Below are positions 21,461 to 55,006 of a stretch of DNA of 64,000 nt, in pieces. How positions within the stretch are numbered: the stretch's first letter is position 1; every line of letters starts with the position of its first letter. Location: assembly GCF_000179555.1 (NCBI RefSeq), contig NZ_AECZ01000008.1, positions 1-64,000 of the forward strand. Direction: 5' to 3'. The position numbers were made by a program, and so were the translations under genes. A model generated the notes under the pieces. The model did no database searches. It was not told where the DNA came from and saw nothing but the letters and a program-made list of their open reading frames with translations. Source of the stretch: Solidesulfovibrio fructosivorans JJ]. Lineage in GTDB: Bacteria > Desulfobacterota > Desulfovibrionia > Desulfovibrionales > Desulfovibrionaceae.

Positions 21461-21625
21461 CCGGGGGGAAACTTTTCTGAAGAAAAGTTTCCCCCCGGAC
21501 CCCCTTTCCAAAGACTTTCATAAGGGAAGGCGAGAATTTCAATGGAGCACAATCCCCCCCGCTAAAAGTTTTTGCGGGAGGGGGGCCGGGGGAGGGGGCT
21601 TTTTTTAAAAAGCCCCCTCCCCCGG
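21461..21625 (+). repeat. Three strong hairpins between livK and livH
   Basis: The first (21461-21498) is a perfect 18-bp stem CCGGGGGGAAACTTTTCT and complement with a two-base loop. It is followed by GACCCCCTTTCCAAAGAC, which also follows copies elsewhere in the window. The second (about 21553-21585) pairs CCCCCCCGC with GCGGGAGGGGG. The third (21586-21625) is a perfect 19-bp stem starting CCGGGGGAGGGGGC. The first is a half copy of the composite repeat. Together they would block or stabilise the message between livK and livH. Confidence 0.85.
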
Positions 21626-31276: not shown

Positions 31277-31438
31277 GCGAGAGGGGAACCCTTTTTGAAA
31301 AAAGGGTTTCCCCTCTCGCACTCTCCCCTCCCAAAAACTTTTAATGGGCGTCACGTGGGCAACCTCCCCTCTTCTGAAAAAAGTCTTTGGAAAGGGGGCC
31401 TGGGGGGAGAACCTTTCTTCAGAAAGGTTTCCCCCCAG
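31277..31438. repeat. Composite double-hairpin repeat, copy b
   Basis: Hairpin A (31277-31319) pairs GCGAGAGGGG with CCCCTCTCGC around A/T-rich inner stems. Hairpin B (31400-31438) pairs CTGGGGGG with CCCCCCAG. Between them lie CTCTCCCCTCCCAAAAACTT and AAAGTCTTTGGAAAGGGGG, found in all full copies. It lies between two genes read leftward, in the promoter region of the K+ channel. Confidence 0.9.
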
Positions 31439-31459: not shown

Positions 31460-32230
31460 TCACGCCCGCAGGTGGGCGCGCCAGGTGTCGACGATTTCCT
31501 TTTCGCGGCGGGCCGGCTCGCTGTCCGGGCCCATGCGGCAGGCCTCCTCGGCCGCCTCGGCCGCCTGCTGCATCCAGCCGCCCTCGCGCAGGCTGCGCGA
31601 AGCCATCACGTACATGAATTCCGGCGCGTCGCCGTAGACGCCCCGCAGAAGCTCCCGATAGCCGCCGCCGAACACCTCGCGCACCAGCTCGTTGCGCTTG
31701 AACATGAGCCGGGCCAGCCAATGGTTCTCCTTCTGGTCGGCCAGATAGAGCGGAAACAGCTTGCGGCACTCGCCGAAAAGAAACCGGATGCGCCGGATTT
31801 CGCGCTGCATGCTCTCGGCGGTCTGCATGAGGAGTTGAAACAGCTCCCGGCTGATGATGAGGTCGGGCTCGGGCAGTTCGCGCTCCTGCATGGACCGGAA
31901 CCAGGGCGCGTAATTTTGCTGCTGATAGGCGTCTTCCTTGAGCTTCATGGACTCGTGGAAGATATAGCCGATGCACCAGTCGAGAAACTGGCCGACAAGG
32001 CTCGACGTGCCGCCGTCGCGGAAGAGATGGTGGGCCGTGTCCTTGAGGCGCCACAAAAGCCCCTTGTTCATCTCCTCGCCGAGCAGATCGCGCAGTTCCT
32101 CGAAAGCCATGGCCCCGCGGCGGTCGAATTCCTGGAAAAGCCCCTCCAGCACCTGCACCGACAGGCAGTAGTCGCGCAGGAGATCGCGGACGAACTCGGC
32201 GCGCTTTTCGTCGAACCAGTTGCTTTGCAT
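31460..32230 (-). CDS. Protein of unknown function (256 aa)
   Basis: It is helical, acidic and rich in aromatic residues (MQSNWFDEKRAEFVRDLL, LDWCIGYIFHESMKLKEDAY, FGECRKLFPLYLAD). It has no membrane segment and no motif I can name. The first half has Cys at LRDYCLSV and LDWCIGY, and the C-terminal helix may be a repeat (AAEAAEEACRMG). A start with GAGGCGGC upstream supports ATG 32230. It lies 89 bases after the Lon-like protease in the same direction and could be part of its operon. Confidence 0.6.
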   Translation of the reverse strand: MQSNWFDEKRAEFVRDLLRDYCLSVQVLEGLFQEFDRRGAMAFEELRDLLGEEMNKGLLWRLKDTAHHLFRDGGTSSLVGQFLDWCIGYIFHESMKLKEDAYQQQNYAPWFRSMQERELPEPDLIISRELFQLLMQTAESMQREIRRIRFLFGECRKLFPLYLADQKENHWLARLMFKRNELVREVFGGGYRELLRGVYGDAPEFMYVMASRSLREGGWMQQAAEAAEEACRMGPDSEPARREKEIVDTWRAHLRA

Positions 32231-34876: not shown

Positions 34877-36040
34877 ATGCTTCATGCCCACGGCAGGCCG
34901 CCGTTTCTCACCGGTCTCGGCGGCGTTCGGGCCCTGGCCGTGCTGGCCGTCCTTGTCGGCCACGCCGCTTCATGGCTGACGCCCCTGCCGGGGCACCCCG
35001 CCCTGCGCGAGCCCCTGGCCCGACTCACCCAATGCGGCCTGTCCGGCTTTTTCGTGCTGTCGGGCTTCGTGCTCCAATACAACTACGGCGCGCGCCCCAT
35101 CACCGGCCCACGGGGGCTGGCCCGGTTCGCCGTCGCCCGGCTGGCCCGCATCTATCCGGTCTACCTGCTGCTGCTCGCGGTCTCCCTGGCCGGTATTTTC
35201 ATCCGCTTCGGCCGGCCCTGGGAAGTGCCCGGATTTTGCCAAAGCGTCCTGTCCGCCCTGACGCTGACCCAAAGCTGGTATTTCGTGGCCGAGGCCCCGA
35301 GCGTCTATCCGCTGGCCTGGGCCGTGAGCACGGAAATCTTCTTCTACTTGTTTTTTCCGCTCCTTAGCCGGGGCCTGTCGGCGCTGCCCGGCCGGCGGGC
35401 GGCCTGGTGCGCCGGGCTTGCGGCCCTGGGCGCGGCCGTCGGCCTCGACGCCTGCATCAGCGCACACTGGCCCGCGCTTTTCGCCTGGGCGCTTCGCGCC
35501 CATCCCGCCCTGGCCGGCGACCAGGCGCGGCTGGCCGGACTGCTTTTCGAGTGGCTGACCTACACCAGCCCGTATCTGCGCATCTTCGAATTCATTGCCG
35601 GCATGGCCGCGGCGCGGCTGTTCGTCCTGGGCCTGCGACCGCCGGCCTGGCTCGCCGTGGCGGCCACGGCGCTCCTCGCCGTCCTGCTGTGCGTCCCCGT
35701 GTCGGGCGACCGGTTTTTCTTCGCCATCCTCAAAAACAACGCCCTCTACGCCCCGGCCCTGGCCGCCTTGTGCCTGTCCCTGGCCGCAAACCCGCCGGCC
35801 TGGGCCACACACCGCCTCACCAGCCGCATCGCCGGGGCAAGCCTGTCCATCTACCTCGCGCAGCCCTTCGTCCTCGAGCCCTGGAAATACCTCTTCGCCC
35901 CGACCGGACCGCTGTGGCCCATGGCCGCCCTGGCCGGCATGGCCGCGACCATCGCCGCCGGCATGCTCCTGGCGCGCTTCGTGGAAGCCCCCGCCGCCCG
36001 GTGGATAAATAAAAAGCGTGCGAGAGGGGAAACCCTTTAA
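34877..36040 (+). CDS. Acyltransferase 3 family membrane protein
   Basis: The 387-residue protein has ten hydrophobic segments and the family's N-terminal signature (GGVRALAVLAVLVGHAASWL, with the catalytic-type His) and FFVLSGFVLQYNYG, RLARIYPVYL. Such enzymes O-acetylate cell-surface polysaccharides, lipopolysaccharide or peptidoglycan. It is divergent from the Lon-like gene with 139 bases between. Its last residues (RARGETL) and stop lie inside the left hairpin of composite repeat c, so the natural C-terminus has probably been overwritten by the repeat. Confidence 0.85.
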   Translation: MLHAHGRPPFLTGLGGVRALAVLAVLVGHAASWLTPLPGHPALREPLARLTQCGLSGFFVLSGFVLQYNYGARPITGPRGLARFAVARLARIYPVYLLLLAVSLAGIFIRFGRPWEVPGFCQSVLSALTLTQSWYFVAEAPSVYPLAWAVSTEIFFYLFFPLLSRGLSALPGRRAAWCAGLAALGAAVGLDACISAHWPALFAWALRAHPALAGDQARLAGLLFEWLTYTSPYLRIFEFIAGMAAARLFVLGLRPPAWLAVAATALLAVLLCVPVSGDRFFFAILKNNALYAPALAALCLSLAANPPAWATHRLTSRIAGASLSIYLAQPFVLEPWKYLFAPTGPLWPMAALAGMAATIAAGMLLARFVEAPAARWINKKRARGETL

Positions 36041-36177
36041 AAAGGGTTCTCCCCTCTCGCGCTCTCCCCTTCCTAAAGCTTTTAACGGGGACGAGTGTCA
36101 CCGTACCAATTGAATTCTATTAAAAGTCTTTGGAAGGGGGCCTGGGGGAAACCTTTCTCCAGAAAGGTTTCCCCCAG
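36020..36177. repeat. Composite double-hairpin repeat, copy c
   Basis: Hairpin A (36020-36060) and hairpin B (36142-36177) are separated by GCTCTCCCCTTCCTAAAGCT and TAAAAGTCTTTGGAAGGGGG, as in the other copies. It lies between converging genes. Next to it at 36178-36201 is another small hairpin around GGGGTCCGGGGC. The first hairpin overlaps the end of the acyltransferase gene. Confidence 0.9.
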
Positions 36178-36205
36178 CGGGGTCCGGGGCAGAGCCCCGG
36201 CGTAA

Positions 36206-41249: not shown

Positions 41250-41413
41250 CCGGGGGGAAACTTTTCTGTAGAAAAGTTTCCCCCCGGACCCCCTTTCCAA
41301 AGACTTTTAACGATTACAGACTGTTAACGAAAATAGGCTGTAACCTTTAGAAGTTTTTGGGAGGGGAGAGCGCGAGAGGGGGACCCTTTTTTCAAAAAGG
41401 GTCCCCCTCTCGC
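41250..41413. repeat. Composite double-hairpin repeat, copy d
   Basis: This copy is in the reverse order: hairpin B (41250-41287, CCGGGGGG/CCCCCCGG) first, then GACCCCCTTTCCAAAGACTT, a spacer with ACAGACTGTTAACG, and hairpin A (41372-41413, GCGAGAGGGGG/CCCCCTCTCGC). It lies between the converging response regulator and diguanylate cyclase genes, five bases after the regulator's stop. Confidence 0.9.
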
Positions 41414-43220: not shown

Positions 43221-46166
43221 ATGCCGCTCCCTGACGCCAATACCCCCTTCCCCGACGCGCCCGAGCCCCGGCTCGACGCCGCCGGCGACGTCGCCGCCTA
43301 CGTGGCCGCCCTGCTCGCGTCCAAGCGCCTGGGCAACCAGGTCGTGTGCCACCGCGTCTTTCCGGCGGCCCAGGCCGCCTACGCCGACCCGGTGCGCCCC
43401 TTTTCCCGGCCCGTGGCCGCCATGCTGGCCGGGCGCGGCATCTCCCGCCTCTACACCCACCAGGCCGCCGCCGTGGACCTGGCCCGGGCCGGACGCCATG
43501 TGGCCGTGGCCACACCCACCGCAAGCGGCAAGACCATGACCTACCTGCTGCCGGTCCTGGAGGAGATCGCCCAAAACCCCGATTCCCGGGCCATCTTCCT
43601 CTATCCCCTGAAAGCCCTGGCCCAGGACCAGCTCAAGGCCATAAACGAATTGACAGCGGCCCTGCCGGCCTCGAGCCGCCCCACCGCCGCCATCTTCGAC
43701 GGCGACACCACGCCCCATTTCCGGCGCAAGATACGCGACAATCCGCCCCAGATCCTCATCACCAACCCCGAGATGCTCCACCTGTCGCTGCTCCCCGGCC
43801 ACGAGGCCTGGAGCACCGTCTTCGCCGGGCTCACCCACGTGGTGGTCGACGAGATGCACACCTACCGGGGGGTGATGGGCTCGCACATGGCCCACGTGTT
43901 CCGGCGGCTCCTGCGCGTATGCGCCCGGTTCGGGGCGCGGCCGGCCTTTGTTTTCTCCTCGGCCACCATCGGCAACCCCGGCGAGCTGGCGGCCAGCCTC
44001 ACCGGACTGCCGGTGGAGACGGTCACCGCCTCGGGCGCGCCCACAGGCTCGCGCCATTTCCTTTTCATCAACCCCGAGCAGTCGCCGTCCACCACGGCGG
44101 TCATGCTGCTGGCCGCGGCGCTGAAACGGGGCCTGCGCACCATCGTCTACACCCAGTCGCGCCGCATGACCGAGCTCATCAGCCTGTGGATCTCCGAACG
44201 GGCCGGCCCATACGCTTCGCGGGTCTCGGCCTACCGCTCGGGATTTCTGCCCGAGGAGCGCCGGGCCATCGAGGCGTCCATGGCCTCGGGCGAGCTTCTG
44301 GGCGTCGTTTCCACCTCGGCCCTGGAACTCGGCATCGACATCGGCGGCCTCGATCTGTGCGTGCTGTGCGGCTACCCCGGCTCGGTCATGTCCGCCTGGC
44401 AGCGCGGCGGCCGGGTCGGCCGGGCGCTTCGGGAATCGGCCGTGGCGCTCATTGCCGGCGAGGACGCCCTGGACCAGTACTTCATGCGCCACCCGGCGGA
44501 TTTCTTCGAGCGCCCGCCGGAATCGGCCGTCATCAACCCCGACAACCCGGTCATCGCGGCCAAGCACCTGGAATGCGCCGCCGCCGAGCTGCCGCTCACC
44601 GTGGGCGAACCGCTCATCACCCCGCCGGCCATGGCCAGGGAAGTCGCCCGGCTGGAGGGGAAGGGGCTGCTTTTGCGCGACCGCGAAGGTACGCGCGTCT
44701 TCGCCGCCAGAAAACGCCCCCACCGCGACGTCAACCTGCGCGGCTCGGGCGGCCAGTTCACCATCGAAACCACGAGCGGCGCGGTCATCGGCCAGATCGA
44801 CGAGCAGCGCGCCTACCGCGAGACCCATCCCGGCGCCGTCTACATCCACCGGGGCGTCTCCTACATGGTGGAATCCCTGGATATCGCCGAGCGCCGGGTA
44901 AGAGTCGCCCCGGGCAAGGTCGACTACCACACCCGGGCCCGGGGCCAGAAGATGACGGAAATCCTGGAAGTCTCCGGCGAAAAGACGGTCCACGGCGTGC
45001 CGGTGTTCCTCGGCCGGCTCAAGGTCACGGAAACCGTCACCGGCTACGAGCGCCGGGCCAATCGCGGCGGCCAGCTCCTGTCCATCGTGCCGCTGGACCT
45101 GCCGCCCATGGTCTTCGAAACCGAAGGCCTGTGGTGGGTCATCCCCAAGGACGTGCAGGACGAGCTCGACCGGCGGCTCTTTCACTTCATGGGCGCCATC
45201 CACGCCATGGAACACGCCATGATCGGCATCCTGCCGCTCTTGGTCTTAACCGACCGCAACGACCTCGGCGGCATCTCCATTCCCCTGCATCCGCAAGTCG
45301 GCCGCGCCTGCGTGTTCATCTACGACGGCGCGCCCGGCGGCGTGGGCCTTAGCCGCATGGCCTTCGCCAAGGCCGAGGAAGCCCTTTCCCGCACGCTGGC
45401 CACGGTGGCAGGCTGCCCCTGCGAGACCGGCTGCCCCTCCTGCGTGCATTCCCCCAAATGCGGTTCCGGCAACCGGCCCATCGACAAGGTTGCCTGCCGC
45501 TTTCTCCTGGAGCTGCTCGTGTCAGGAAAAATGCCCGAGAAAGGCGATTGCCGTCCCGAGTGCAACGAACAACAACACACCAACAACCAGAAGCCCGGCT
45601 CCGGCCCCGCCCTGATCAAACAGGCCCCGCCCGAGCGCTACGGCGTCCTCGACGTGGAGACGCGCCGCTCCGCCGCCGAGGTCGGCGGCTGGGGCAACGC
45701 CTACAAGATGGGCATCTCCGTGGCCGTGCTCTACGACTCGTCCCTGGACGACTTCCTGGTCTACCGCCAGGAGGAACTCCCCGCCCTCTACGAAGCCCTG
45801 GCCCAGTGCAACCTTGTGGTCGGCTTCAACATCAACCGCTTCGACTACAAGGTCCTCGCCGGCGCGTCGCCCTTCGACCACCACACCCTGCCGACCCTGG
45901 ATATCCTGGAAAAAGTCCACGCCCGCCTGGGCTACCGCCTGTCCCTGGACGGACTGGCCAAGGCCACCCTCGGCGCCCGGAAATCCGCCTCGGGCCTGGA
46001 AGCCCTGGCCTGGTGGAAGGAAGGCCGCATGGACGAGATCATCACCTACTGCAAACAAGACGTGGCCGTGACCCGCGATCTCTATATCTTCGGCCGTGAC
46101 AACGGGTACCTGCTCTTCTCCAACAAAGCCGGCAAAACCGTCCGCCTGCCCGTTGAATGGGCATGA
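43221..46166 (+). CDS. MrfA-like helicase fused to MrfB-like exonuclease
   Basis: The 981 residues begin with a superfamily 2 helicase: Walker A TPTASGKTMTY near 98, DEMH near 209, SATIGNP, and VSTSALELGIDIG and QRGGRVGRA motifs. A MrfA/YprA-type C-terminal domain with the zinc cysteines CPCETGCPSCVHSPKCG (about 732-749) follows, then a DEDD-type exonuclease like MrfB/YprB: DVET near 811-814, FNINRFDYK near 870, and YCKQDVAVTRDLY near 942. In Bacillus MrfA and MrfB are separate proteins that repair mitomycin C damage together. A start at 43083 would add 46 residues; ATG 43221 has only a weak ribosome site. Confidence 0.85.
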   Translation: MPLPDANTPFPDAPEPRLDAAGDVAAYVAALLASKRLGNQVVCHRVFPAAQAAYADPVRPFSRPVAAMLAGRGISRLYTHQAAAVDLARAGRHVAVATPTASGKTMTYLLPVLEEIAQNPDSRAIFLYPLKALAQDQLKAINELTAALPASSRPTAAIFDGDTTPHFRRKIRDNPPQILITNPEMLHLSLLPGHEAWSTVFAGLTHVVVDEMHTYRGVMGSHMAHVFRRLLRVCARFGARPAFVFSSATIGNPGELAASLTGLPVETVTASGAPTGSRHFLFINPEQSPSTTAVMLLAAALKRGLRTIVYTQSRRMTELISLWISERAGPYASRVSAYRSGFLPEERRAIEASMASGELLGVVSTSALELGIDIGGLDLCVLCGYPGSVMSAWQRGGRVGRALRESAVALIAGEDALDQYFMRHPADFFERPPESAVINPDNPVIAAKHLECAAAELPLTVGEPLITPPAMAREVARLEGKGLLLRDREGTRVFAARKRPHRDVNLRGSGGQFTIETTSGAVIGQIDEQRAYRETHPGAVYIHRGVSYMVESLDIAERRVRVAPGKVDYHTRARGQKMTEILEVSGEKTVHGVPVFLGRLKVTETVTGYERRANRGGQLLSIVPLDLPPMVFETEGLWWVIPKDVQDELDRRLFHFMGAIHAMEHAMIGILPLLVLTDRNDLGGISIPLHPQVGRACVFIYDGAPGGVGLSRMAFAKAEEALSRTLATVAGCPCETGCPSCVHSPKCGSGNRPIDKVACRFLLELLVSGKMPEKGDCRPECNEQQHTNNQKPGSGPALIKQAPPERYGVLDVETRRSAAEVGGWGNAYKMGISVAVLYDSSLDDFLVYRQEELPALYEALAQCNLVVGFNINRFDYKVLAGASPFDHHTLPTLDILEKVHARLGYRLSLDGLAKATLGARKSASGLEALAWWKEGRMDEIITYCKQDVAVTRDLYIFGRDNGYLLFSNKAGKTVRLPVEWA

Positions 46167-46224: not shown

Positions 46225-46287
46225 CTGGGGGAAACCTTTCTGGAGAAAGGTTTCCCCCAGGCCCCCTTCCCAAGACTTTTCATGGGG
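46225..46287. repeat. Half copy of the composite repeat (hairpin B and tail), copy e
   Basis: CTGGGGGAAACCTTTCT and its complement (46225-46260), followed by GCCCCCTTCCCAAGACTTTT, match hairpin B and its flank in the composite copies. It lies after the helicase-exonuclease gene. Confidence 0.85.
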
Positions 46288-46673: not shown

Positions 46674-47486
46674 GTGCTGACTATTGAAGAATTGTCCAAA
46701 ACTTACGCCCAAAACGGTTCGCCGCCGGCCTGCGCCCTGGCCGGGGTGAGCTTTGCCGTGCCGCGCGGGGCGTTCGTCTCGCTTCTGGGGCCGTCAGGCT
46801 GTGGTAAATCCACCATCCTCCAATGCGTGTGCGGGCTTATGCGCCCCACTTCCGGCCACGTGCGCCTCGACGGCCGCGACGTCACCAGCCCGCCCCCGGA
46901 AATGGCCCTCATCTTCCAAAACGCCGCCGCCTCGCTCTTCCCCTGGCAAACCGTGGCCGAAAACATCCGCTTCGTGCTGCGCCGCAAACCCGGCTCCAAA
47001 AAAGACAAGGAACAGGCTGCAAGACAGGCCCTGGCCTCGGTCGGACTGGCCGCATTCGCCGACCGCTACCCCTGGCAGCTCTCCGGCGGCATGCAGCAGC
47101 GCGCCGCCCTGGCCCGGGGACTGGCCTACGGCGCGGATATCCTGCTCCTCGACGAACCCTTCGCCTCCGTCGACGCCCAGACCCGCGAGGAACTCGAAGA
47201 CCTGCTCGCCGCCGTCGCCCGCAACCAGGCCAAAACCGTGCTCTTCGTCACCCACGACATCGACGAGGCCGTGTACCTGTCCGATACCGTCATCGTGCTC
47301 ACACCGCCGCCGGCCAAAGTCGCCGCCACCATCACCGTCGAACTGCCCACACCCCGCGACCAGATCAGCACCCGCGAGGATCGCCGCTTCCTCGACGCCC
47401 GTAGGGCGATTCACGCCCTGTTGCGGCGAGAGGAAGAGGGTGGGAGGGGCGTTGCCCCTCCCACACCCACCCCACCAGGGGAATAA
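46674..47486 (+). CDS. ABC transporter ATPase, nitrate/sulfonate/taurine type
   Basis: Starting at GTG, the 270 residues carry Walker A GPSGCGKST, the family Q-loop (MALIFQNAAASLFPWQTV), signature LSGGMQQRAALARGL, Walker B ILLLDEPFASVD and the switch His (VTHDIDEAVYLSD). The end of the protein (GGRGVAPPTPTPPGE) is encoded by hairpin repeats at 47440-47464 and 47475-47495, and its TAA lies inside the second one. The natural C-terminus was probably at about Leu-Leu-Arg-Arg before them. The GTG has no visible ribosome site. Confidence 0.88.
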   Translation: MLTIEELSKTYAQNGSPPACALAGVSFAVPRGAFVSLLGPSGCGKSTILQCVCGLMRPTSGHVRLDGRDVTSPPPEMALIFQNAAASLFPWQTVAENIRFVLRRKPGSKKDKEQAARQALASVGLAAFADRYPWQLSGGMQQRAALARGLAYGADILLLDEPFASVDAQTREELEDLLAAVARNQAKTVLFVTHDIDEAVYLSDTVIVLTPPPAKVAATITVELPTPRDQISTREDRRFLDARRAIHALLRREEEGGRGVAPPTPTPPGE

Positions 47487-47647
47487 TTCCCCTGGACCCT
47501 TTAATAGCGGACAATTTCAACCATCACCGACATGCCGCATCCATCCGACATATCCAACCCATGCCCCATCAAAGGGGGCCCGGGGGGAATTATTCCCCCC
47601 GGTAGGGTGGTCCAGGAGGGGCGACGCCCCTCCTGGCCGCCGGAGGC
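47440..47647 (+). repeat. Cluster of four hairpins between ATPase and permease genes
   Basis: 47440-47464 (GTGGGAGGGGC/GCCCCTCCCAC), 47475-47495 (CCAGGGGAAT-A-ATTCCCCTGG), 47580-47602 (CCGGGGGGAAT-T-ATTCCCCCCGG), and 47609-47647, which holds CCAGGAGGGGCG/CGCCCCTCCTGG and the flank GCCGCCGGAGGC. The last repeats 46180-46218 in opposite direction, and its GGAGG serves as ribosome site of the permease at 47655. Confidence 0.85.
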
Positions 47648-53573: not shown

Positions 53574-53842
53574 CGGCGGTGTTATGGTGAATGGCCTGAG
53601 GTGGTCACAAGAAATTGGACAGCCCGTTAAGCTCTCGTCCAATTGAGCCCATGCCGCCTTCGAAGCCAAGTGGCCTTCTCGGCCTACGTCCATAGGGCGA
53701 CGTCCATCATAAGGGTCCCCCTCTCGCGCTCTCCCCTCCCCAAAACTTCCAACGGTGACAATCTGTTATCGTTAAAAGTCTTTGGAAAGGGGGTCTGGGG
53801 GAAAACTTTTCTACAGAAAAGTTTTCCCCCAGTCTTATCCTC
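53574..53842. other. Spacer after the helicase with a palindrome and possible element remnant
   Basis: AATTGGAC (53613-53620) and GTCCAATT (53637-53644) form an inverted repeat close after the helicase stop. The sequence from about 53595 to 53700 (TGAGGTGGTCACAAG and following) does not resemble its surroundings and could be the end of an old mobile element. I cannot name it. The composite repeat f begins at 53711. Confidence 0.3.
53711..53832. repeat. Composite double-hairpin repeat, copy f (left half damaged)
   Basis: Only the right arm of hairpin A remains (AAGGGTCCCCCTCTCGCG, 53711-53728). Then CTCTCCCCTCCCCAAAACTT, a spacer, AAAAGTCTTTGGAAAGGGGG and hairpin B (53795-53832). The missing arm borders the odd sequence after the helicase gene, so the event that brought the helicase may have cut into this repeat. 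Confidence 0.85.
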
Positions 53843-54841: not shown

Positions 54842-55006
54842 GCGAGAGGGGAACCCTTTTTGAAAAAAGGGTTCCCCTCTCGCGCTCTCCCCTCCCAAAA
54901 ACTTCTCACGATTACGGATGCTTTAACGACAACGCTTTGTAACCGTTAGAAGTCTTGGGAAAGGGGGTCCGGGGGGAAACCTTTCTTCAGAAAGGTTTCC
55001 CCCCGG
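54842..55006. repeat. Composite double-hairpin repeat, copy g (clearest copy)
   Basis: Hairpin A (54842-54883, GCGAGAGGGGAACCC and complement), GCTCTCCCCTCCCAAAAACT, a 60-base spacer with ATTACGGATGCTTTAACG, GAAGTCTTGGGAAAGGGGG, and hairpin B (54969-55006, CCGGGGGGAAACC and complement). It sits between choX and betB. The end of betB lies inside hairpin B. Confidence 0.9.

Follow-up and report, generated by a model that had tools for sequence, protein, structure and literature searches.

MITEs, ERIC, Correia and BOX sequences are short, non-coding elements with inverted ends that are dispersed in many copies, and the repeat described in this work has the same traits. Its closest described counterparts are REP and BIME sequences (PMC3733652), which it resembles in forming hundreds of extragenic palindromes, in preferring convergent gaps, in joining its units as inverted pairs and in having been amplified in a particular lineage. 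A further likeness is that it is a target of IS110-family elements, as REPs are known to be for ISPa11, ISPpu9 and ISPpu10 (PMC1525189). Tagged REPs have been described as tied to particular genomes and to RAYT transposases, and the 2013 survey of REPs mentions neither Desulfovibrio nor Ruminococcus (PMC3733652).

The repeat, found in the 64,000-nt stretch of DNA from the sulfate reducer Solidesulfovibrio fructosivorans analyzed here (the window), has the high copy number, the extragenic placement and the preference for 3' ends and convergent gaps by which REPs are recognized. In contrast to tagged REPs, neither of its ends bears a GTAG or CGTC tag: in 50 composites, neither tetranucleotide was present inward of hairpin A, and two stray matches lay near the outer ends. 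Its half-unit is ~60 nt long, compared with 20-40 bp for a REP unit, and no RAYT was found in the closest relative of the genome that holds the window. It also differs from REPs in having two distinct halves, a fixed A-to-B order and a pairing arm, and in being present in two phyla. With neither the tag, the RAYT nor the unit size of the tagged REP families, the repeat is not a member of them. No Rfam 15 family matched the window at its gathering score, and an E-value search of eight loci with copies returned only matches below that score; the weak ones to microRNA families were rejected as palindrome artefacts. Searching the literature by sequence words did not retrieve the motif, and searching it by topic retrieved no paper on the repeat. 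We regard it as probably a REP/BIME-like dispersed bidirectional terminator or mRNA 3'-end element, which offers a test of selfish repeats against working bidirectional terminators that spread.

Results and discussion

Architecture of the repeat and its copies in the window

The genome that holds the window (G000; 4.67 Mb in 75 contigs) was compared with the complete genome of its closest relative (the sister genome G004). The repeat is composed, in this order, of hairpin A (~42 nt), a G-poor arm, a variable stem, a matching arm and hairpin B (~38 nt), and it is ~165 nt long and nearly palindromic. The A-side arm reads CTCTCCCCTCCCAAAAACTT, in its fuller form CTCTCCCCTCCCAAAAACTTTT, and the B-side arm AAAAGTCTTTGGAAAGGGGG, while the variable middle spans 24-47 nt when measured between the profile ends of the A and B halves. 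Since arm A pairs with arm B to form the central stem, a single strand folds into three stems, and the predicted folds indicate that the repeat could also form a cruciform. The two ends are inverted relatives, in that the A half, when reverse-complemented, resembles the B half, yet they remain distinct. The statistics on copies were drawn from 455 kb of G000 and 400 kb of G004, in which the halves combined as A followed by B and also occurred as orphan A, as orphan B and in one odd pair.

The initial annotation listed five copies, each with hairpin A, a flank, a variable spacer, a mirrored flank and hairpin B. All of them were read and matched by BLAST, with a mutual identity of 74-86% over 120-165 nt. 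The copy at 31277-31438 (plus strand) consists of hairpin A (31277-31319), arm A (~31320-31345), the variable middle, arm B (~31379-31399) and hairpin B (31400-31438); its gap is a tandem one, and the stop codon of the neighboring gene (31460-32230, minus strand) is 21 nt away. The copy at 36020-36177 (plus strand; hairpin A 36020-36060, hairpin B 36142-36177) occupies a convergent gap, as does that at 41250-41413 (minus strand; hairpin A 41372-41413, hairpin B 41250-41287), which is only 4 nt and 26 nt away from its two flanking stop codons. The copy at 53711-53832 (plus strand; hairpin B 53795-53832) is truncated, the left half of hairpin A being missing, and it sits at a breakpoint of synteny with G004. 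The fifth copy, at 54842-55006 (plus strand; hairpin A 54842-54883, hairpin B 54969-55006), is again in a tandem gap. Three of the five, at 36020, 41250 and 53711, are thus between converging genes, as had been claimed, and the remaining two are in tandem gaps.

Two further sites, 21461 and 46225, had been taken for copies with hairpin B alone. The second, at 46225-46283 (minus strand), is a true orphan B half-unit of hairpin and arm, with its hairpin end ~60 nt past the stop codon of a plus-strand gene (43221-46166). The first turned out to be a variant composite (21461-21625, minus strand), in which hairpin B and the B arm (21461-21520) are joined to an A-like arm with a swapped hairpin (21586-21625; CCGGGGGAGGGGGCTTTTT/AAAAAGCCCCCTCCCCCGG). 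Both the composite and the orphan half are conserved in G004. A separate inverted repeat near a gene end (47443-47633), with two 50-nt arms that are 78% complementary and 91 nt apart, stands outside the repeat family.

Conservation of base pairing

RNAalifold analysis of 48 full copies recovered both hairpins as well as the base of the central stem, with standard pairs in 97.9% of the cells; sliding the partner strand along lowered this value to 49-75%. Changes on both sides of a pair were found at 11 of 38 pairs. They amounted to 86 cells, compared with 31 in shuffled data, a level reached in 0 of 500 shuffles, although these counts include related copies and the events are therefore not independent. 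The claim that stem differences are paired changes thus held in this larger set. Orthologous copies of G000 and G004 also showed paired changes at the same locus (e.g., hairpin B at 109174/118514, CCTTTC..GAAAGG versus CTTTTC..GAAAAG), as well as an ~18-nt deletion at the tip of the central stem. The variable middle paired better with itself than with the middles of other copies (-10.7 versus -8.7; 0/300). An outer stem was weak in S. fructosivorans copies (observed -11.8, null -11.0, SD 0.45, with the earlier gene calls described below).

Position at gene ends and a proposed function

Placement was counted on self-trained gene calls. The 113 sites were divided among convergent gaps (44), tandem gaps (66), divergent gaps (2) and the interior of a gene (1), and two more lay at contig edges. 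Convergent gaps hold 17% and divergent gaps 27% of the intergenic bases, from which the placement departs strongly (p = 1.5e-13). A stop codon was faced by 123 hairpin ends, at a median distance of 18 nt and in 94% of cases within -25 to 45 nt, while 46 ends faced a start codon, most of them in the far half of a pair within a tandem gap. The full pair was present in 30 of 116 convergent gaps. The gap-length, T-tract and outer-stem figures are based on earlier gene calls, from a caller that had been trained on shadow ORFs and had put several genes in the wrong orientation, among them the left neighbor of the copy at 31277-31438. On these calls, convergent gaps with a full element had a median length of 187 nt, indicating that the element fills the gap. 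A separate T-tract terminator was seen in 0 of 31 full-element convergent gaps versus 10 of 62 element-less gaps, and the lack of a second T-tract terminator across all element-bearing gaps was borderline (p = 0.065), again on the earlier calls.

The sequence flanking the hairpins was also distinctive. The 12 nt outward of the hairpins contained 42% T, 37% C and 6% G, compared with 15% T and 35% G at control gene ends, and the arms contained 4-8% G. TTTT was present within 16 nt in 28 of 100 flanks, an uninterrupted T-run after the hairpin being found in a minority of cases. Of 23 high-scoring tandem orphans, 17 had the hairpin on the side of the stop codon (p = 0.035), whereas for all orphans the figure was 24 of 41 (p = 0.35), so that polarity is significant for the high-scoring copies only. 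The repeat has a G/C-rich hairpin and a U-rich tract behind a stop codon, as the sequence definition of an intrinsic terminator demands. It shares with bidirectional intrinsic terminators the strong hairpins past convergent stop codons and the U-rich tract beyond the distal hairpin in both directions, but it differs from them in having three stems instead of one, near-identical copies and a U tract diluted with C.

These findings led us to propose the following function. Each half-unit consists of a strong G/C hairpin with a G-poor, C/U-rich arm, the hairpin of an orphan half usually lying ~15-30 nt past a stop codon; set head to head, halves A and B make up the 165-nt element filling the gap between two genes, an anatomy that may be read as two back-to-back 3'-end signals. 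RNA from either strand would contain hairpin A, the central stem and hairpin B, and a transcript of either gene would carry the first hairpin ~18 nt past its stop codon, then the G-poor arm and the central stem, followed by the second hairpin and, past that last hairpin, the U/C-rich tract. RNA polymerase might be stopped intrinsically at the hairpin and the U-rich tract, or with the help of Rho on the G-poor arms, and the folded 3' end would shield the mRNA from 3' exonucleases; convergent transcription units would thereby be kept apart. A polymerase stop at the distal hairpin or the G-poor stretch, combined with shielding of the 3' end, would be the most economical function. To the initial annotation the copies looked like bidirectional terminators, and their location, convergent preference, spacing and U/C-rich flanks fit that description, as do the 31 full-element convergent gaps with no second T-tract terminator; termination itself, like 3'-end protection, is what we infer from these sequence features.

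The hairpin-first order past stop codons, together with G-poor, C-rich arms able to load Rho, would equally suit a processing or stability element, that is, an RNase barrier or a substrate of RNase III that plays no role in termination, in which case transcripts would end further on by Rho and be trimmed back to the hairpin. We find this improbable, because it does not account for the U/C-rich tract directly beyond the distal hairpin in both directions, and because in a convergent gap that is wholly filled the trimming sites would fall inside the neighboring gene. Still more doubtful is a structural role in the chromosome, as a supercoil sink or a site for gyrase or a nucleoid protein, of the kind proposed for some BIMEs of Escherichia coli. 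Positive supercoils do gather in convergent gaps and the repeat might extrude as a cruciform; however, 66 of the 113 sites are tandem gaps, and supercoiling does not require the tight spacing to stop codons.

Copy number and lineage history

With at most one mismatch allowed, the 17-mer of the B arm, AAGTYTTTGGRAAGGGG, had 154 matches in G000 and 142 in G004, and the reversed pattern had 0. For a 15-mer of the A core, the counts were 247 in G000 and 270 in G004, as against 0-2 in the five congeneric species tested and 4 in a further genus of the family; because this pattern is a mirror palindrome, reversing it gives no informative control. A BLAST search of G000 gave at least 40 scored places. 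Otherwise, the exact B arm was nearly absent among 395 genomes drawn across the phylum. The copies are therefore far from being confined to the window.

At the locus of the copy at 36020-36177, three outgroups (G001, G010 and G011) lacked the repeat and had the two convergent genes almost without a gap, and at that of the copy at 41250-41413, other species of the genus had different simple palindromes or nothing. The orthologous gene end carries a different palindrome, of the GGGGGTCCGGGGGGATCATCCCCCCGGCCGCCGGAGGC type, in other congeners (L259, L261, L263 and L266), which suggests a turnover of the palindromes at gene ends from one species to the next. The counts and the repeat-free outgroup loci indicate that the family was most likely gained and multiplied in the lineage of G000 and G004, in agreement with the earlier proposal that the repeats had been copied: ~250 copies are present in the two sister genomes.

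Current movement fared differently. Contig C8 of G000 and G004 share ~91% DNA identity, and wherever both flanks of a C8 copy mapped to one place in G004, that place was occupied in every case, which gives no indication of movement after the two genomes split. No clear target duplication was apparent in the window copies or the listed flanks; the two loci that lack the element in outgroups were too diverged to fix a target. RAYT (the Y1 transposase, PF01797) was found 0 times in G004 despite its ~270 copies and once in G000, where its 3-kb locus contained no A or B half-unit; an association with RAYT was rejected on these grounds. We found no autonomous, transposase-bearing version of the repeat, and no mobilizing enzyme was identified. 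Unlike MITEs, ERIC, Correia and BOX elements, the repeat showed no apparent target-site duplication, a matching transposase was not found, and its ends are self-contained hairpins. Mobility of the copies, in the sense of ongoing transposition, is thus not supported by these data.

These data bear on whether the repeat is a selfish palindrome, mobile in the manner of a REP or a MITE, which inserted at gene ends because it was harmless there, its terminator look reflecting target choice or tolerance. Such an origin is compatible with the lineage-specific burst to ~250 copies, the orthologous outgroup gaps without the element, the near-identical copies at separate loci (e.g., L002 and L003), its occurrence in two phyla and its near absence from within genes. 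We nevertheless judge it unlikely, given the occupied places in G004, the missing RAYT and the lack of a clear target duplication in the flanks; moreover, a selfish palindrome need not keep its pairs by compensatory change, nor need it have U/C-rich flanks beyond both ends. For a repeat acting as a bidirectional 3'-end element, the copies could have spread by transposition through an unseen enzyme or by gene conversion. Synteny between G000 and G004 breaks at two copies (window 36175-36193, and 53711), as expected if copies recombine with each other; the 17.5-kb piece between these two copies lies in large part elsewhere in G004.

A phage collection queried with a half-unit and a plasmid collection gave no match. 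An exact arm search of viral contigs gave three matches, one of them a lone half-unit with its hairpin. This is a B half-unit at ~7040-7080 of L232 (IMG/VR UViG_2571042346), in a short gap between reading frames. In the Desulfovibrio MAG STF2_139 (L067, L068, L072, L106, L108 and L125), the B half-unit is found within short tandem arrays with a period of ~200-230 nt, along with other hairpins.

IS elements inserted in the repeat

Among the G004 copies examined, three were interrupted: in the loop of hairpin A (the ortholog of the copy at 41250-41413), in an A arm and in a B arm. The B-arm insertion is an IS110-family element of ~1.45 kb, whose recombinase contains PF01548 and PF02371. It is present in 13 copies in G004 (L289-L301, e.g., G004:C1:1613230) and was not found in G000 or in the other congeneric genomes searched, 12 in all. 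Every one of the 13 copies interrupts the B arm at one position, AAAAGTCTTT^TGGAAAGGGG, whose sequence varies slightly, and this is their only site in G004. The long non-coding region of the element lies downstream of the recombinase gene, unlike that of IS621. This long non-coding end has AAAAGTCT in a predicted internal loop, and by analogy with IS621 (PMC11208160) the stretch is possibly a bridge-RNA guide. Like IS621, another IS110-family member, the element has a strict repeat target, but the target repeat is different from the REP used by IS621 (PMC11208160, PMC11208158, PMC1525189). The element and the B arm would be a natural candidate bridge-RNA/target pair beyond those of enterobacteria and pseudomonads. 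In its behavior the repeat is closer to REP and BIME sequences, also in that insertion sequences land in it.

The insertion in the hairpin A loop (L204, G004:C1:1351503-1352343) is ~840 bp long and has an apparent 8-bp repeat, TTTGAAAA. That in the A arm (L215, G004:C1:1565504-1566588) contains a transposase-like reading frame.

Relatives of the repeat in Ruminococcus

When named genomes were scanned with the 18-mer AAGTCTTTGGAAAGGGGG, the matches listed came from Ruminococcus (largely the gut bacterium R. flavefaciens), from further Clostridia and from Desulfovibrionales MAGs; a few more lacked a hairpin and were ascribed to chance. Isolate records of R. flavefaciens with the arm included, among the matches listed, those of FD-1, XPD3002, YL228 and MA2007. 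Many of the R. flavefaciens arms are followed by hairpin B and preceded by an A-type hairpin, TTGAGGGAAACCCTTTTGAAAAAGGGTTCTCCCTCAA, with the arm CTCCCTTCCTAAAACTTT; in the window, hairpin A of the copy at 36020-36177, of the subtype AAACCC..GGGTTCTCC, is nearest to the Ruminococcus form. Applied to 400 kb of R. flavefaciens, the B profile derived from G000 and G004 gave 51 hits (best E 7e-17) and the A profile gave 21, compared with 0 in the reversed sequence. The B-half consensus differs by a few letters between the two lineages. Fourteen of 25 R. flavefaciens sites were in convergent gaps, which make up 11% of the gene pairs. In this species the outer stem is long and copy-specific (-30.5 versus -12.1; n = 11), as is the middle stem (-40.7 versus -15.9; n = 10), and the long middle together with the additional outer stem gives a cloverleaf.

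Simple G/C hairpins are common at gene ends in the genus of S. fructosivorans, and one might suspect chance look-alikes among such palindromes, or contamination. We give this practically no weight. The 154 matches of AAGTYTTTGGRAAGGGG against 0 for its reversed control exclude chance, which is likewise refuted by the compensatory-change test and the other informative reversed-pattern controls, all of them 0; moreover, an 18-nt unpaired arm and both hairpin types are shared, and against contamination, the copies stand in named R. flavefaciens isolate records. The exact arm was found in 6 of 291 genomes of the class of Ruminococcus, a patchy distribution. Horizontal transfer between the phyla would be the simplest reading of these findings.

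The S. fructosivorans repeat is REP-like, but it is built differently, has no associated RAYT and is closely related to sequences of a second phylum, at gene ends in both. It is conceivable, though we put this forward tentatively, that these sequences form an undescribed class of folded 3'-end elements, with an A hairpin, a variable central stem and a B hairpin, and in Ruminococcus a four-way cloverleaf with a copy-specific outer stem; the class would have passed horizontally between Desulfobacterota and Clostridia, its spread would have relied on some mechanism other than RAYT, and it would have become the exclusive, probably RNA-guided landing site of an IS110-family element. In some Ruminococcus copies (L071, L095 and L114), a second sequence (GTGACTCCCCGCAGTGCGGGGAGATGTC...) is nested in hairpin B or A.
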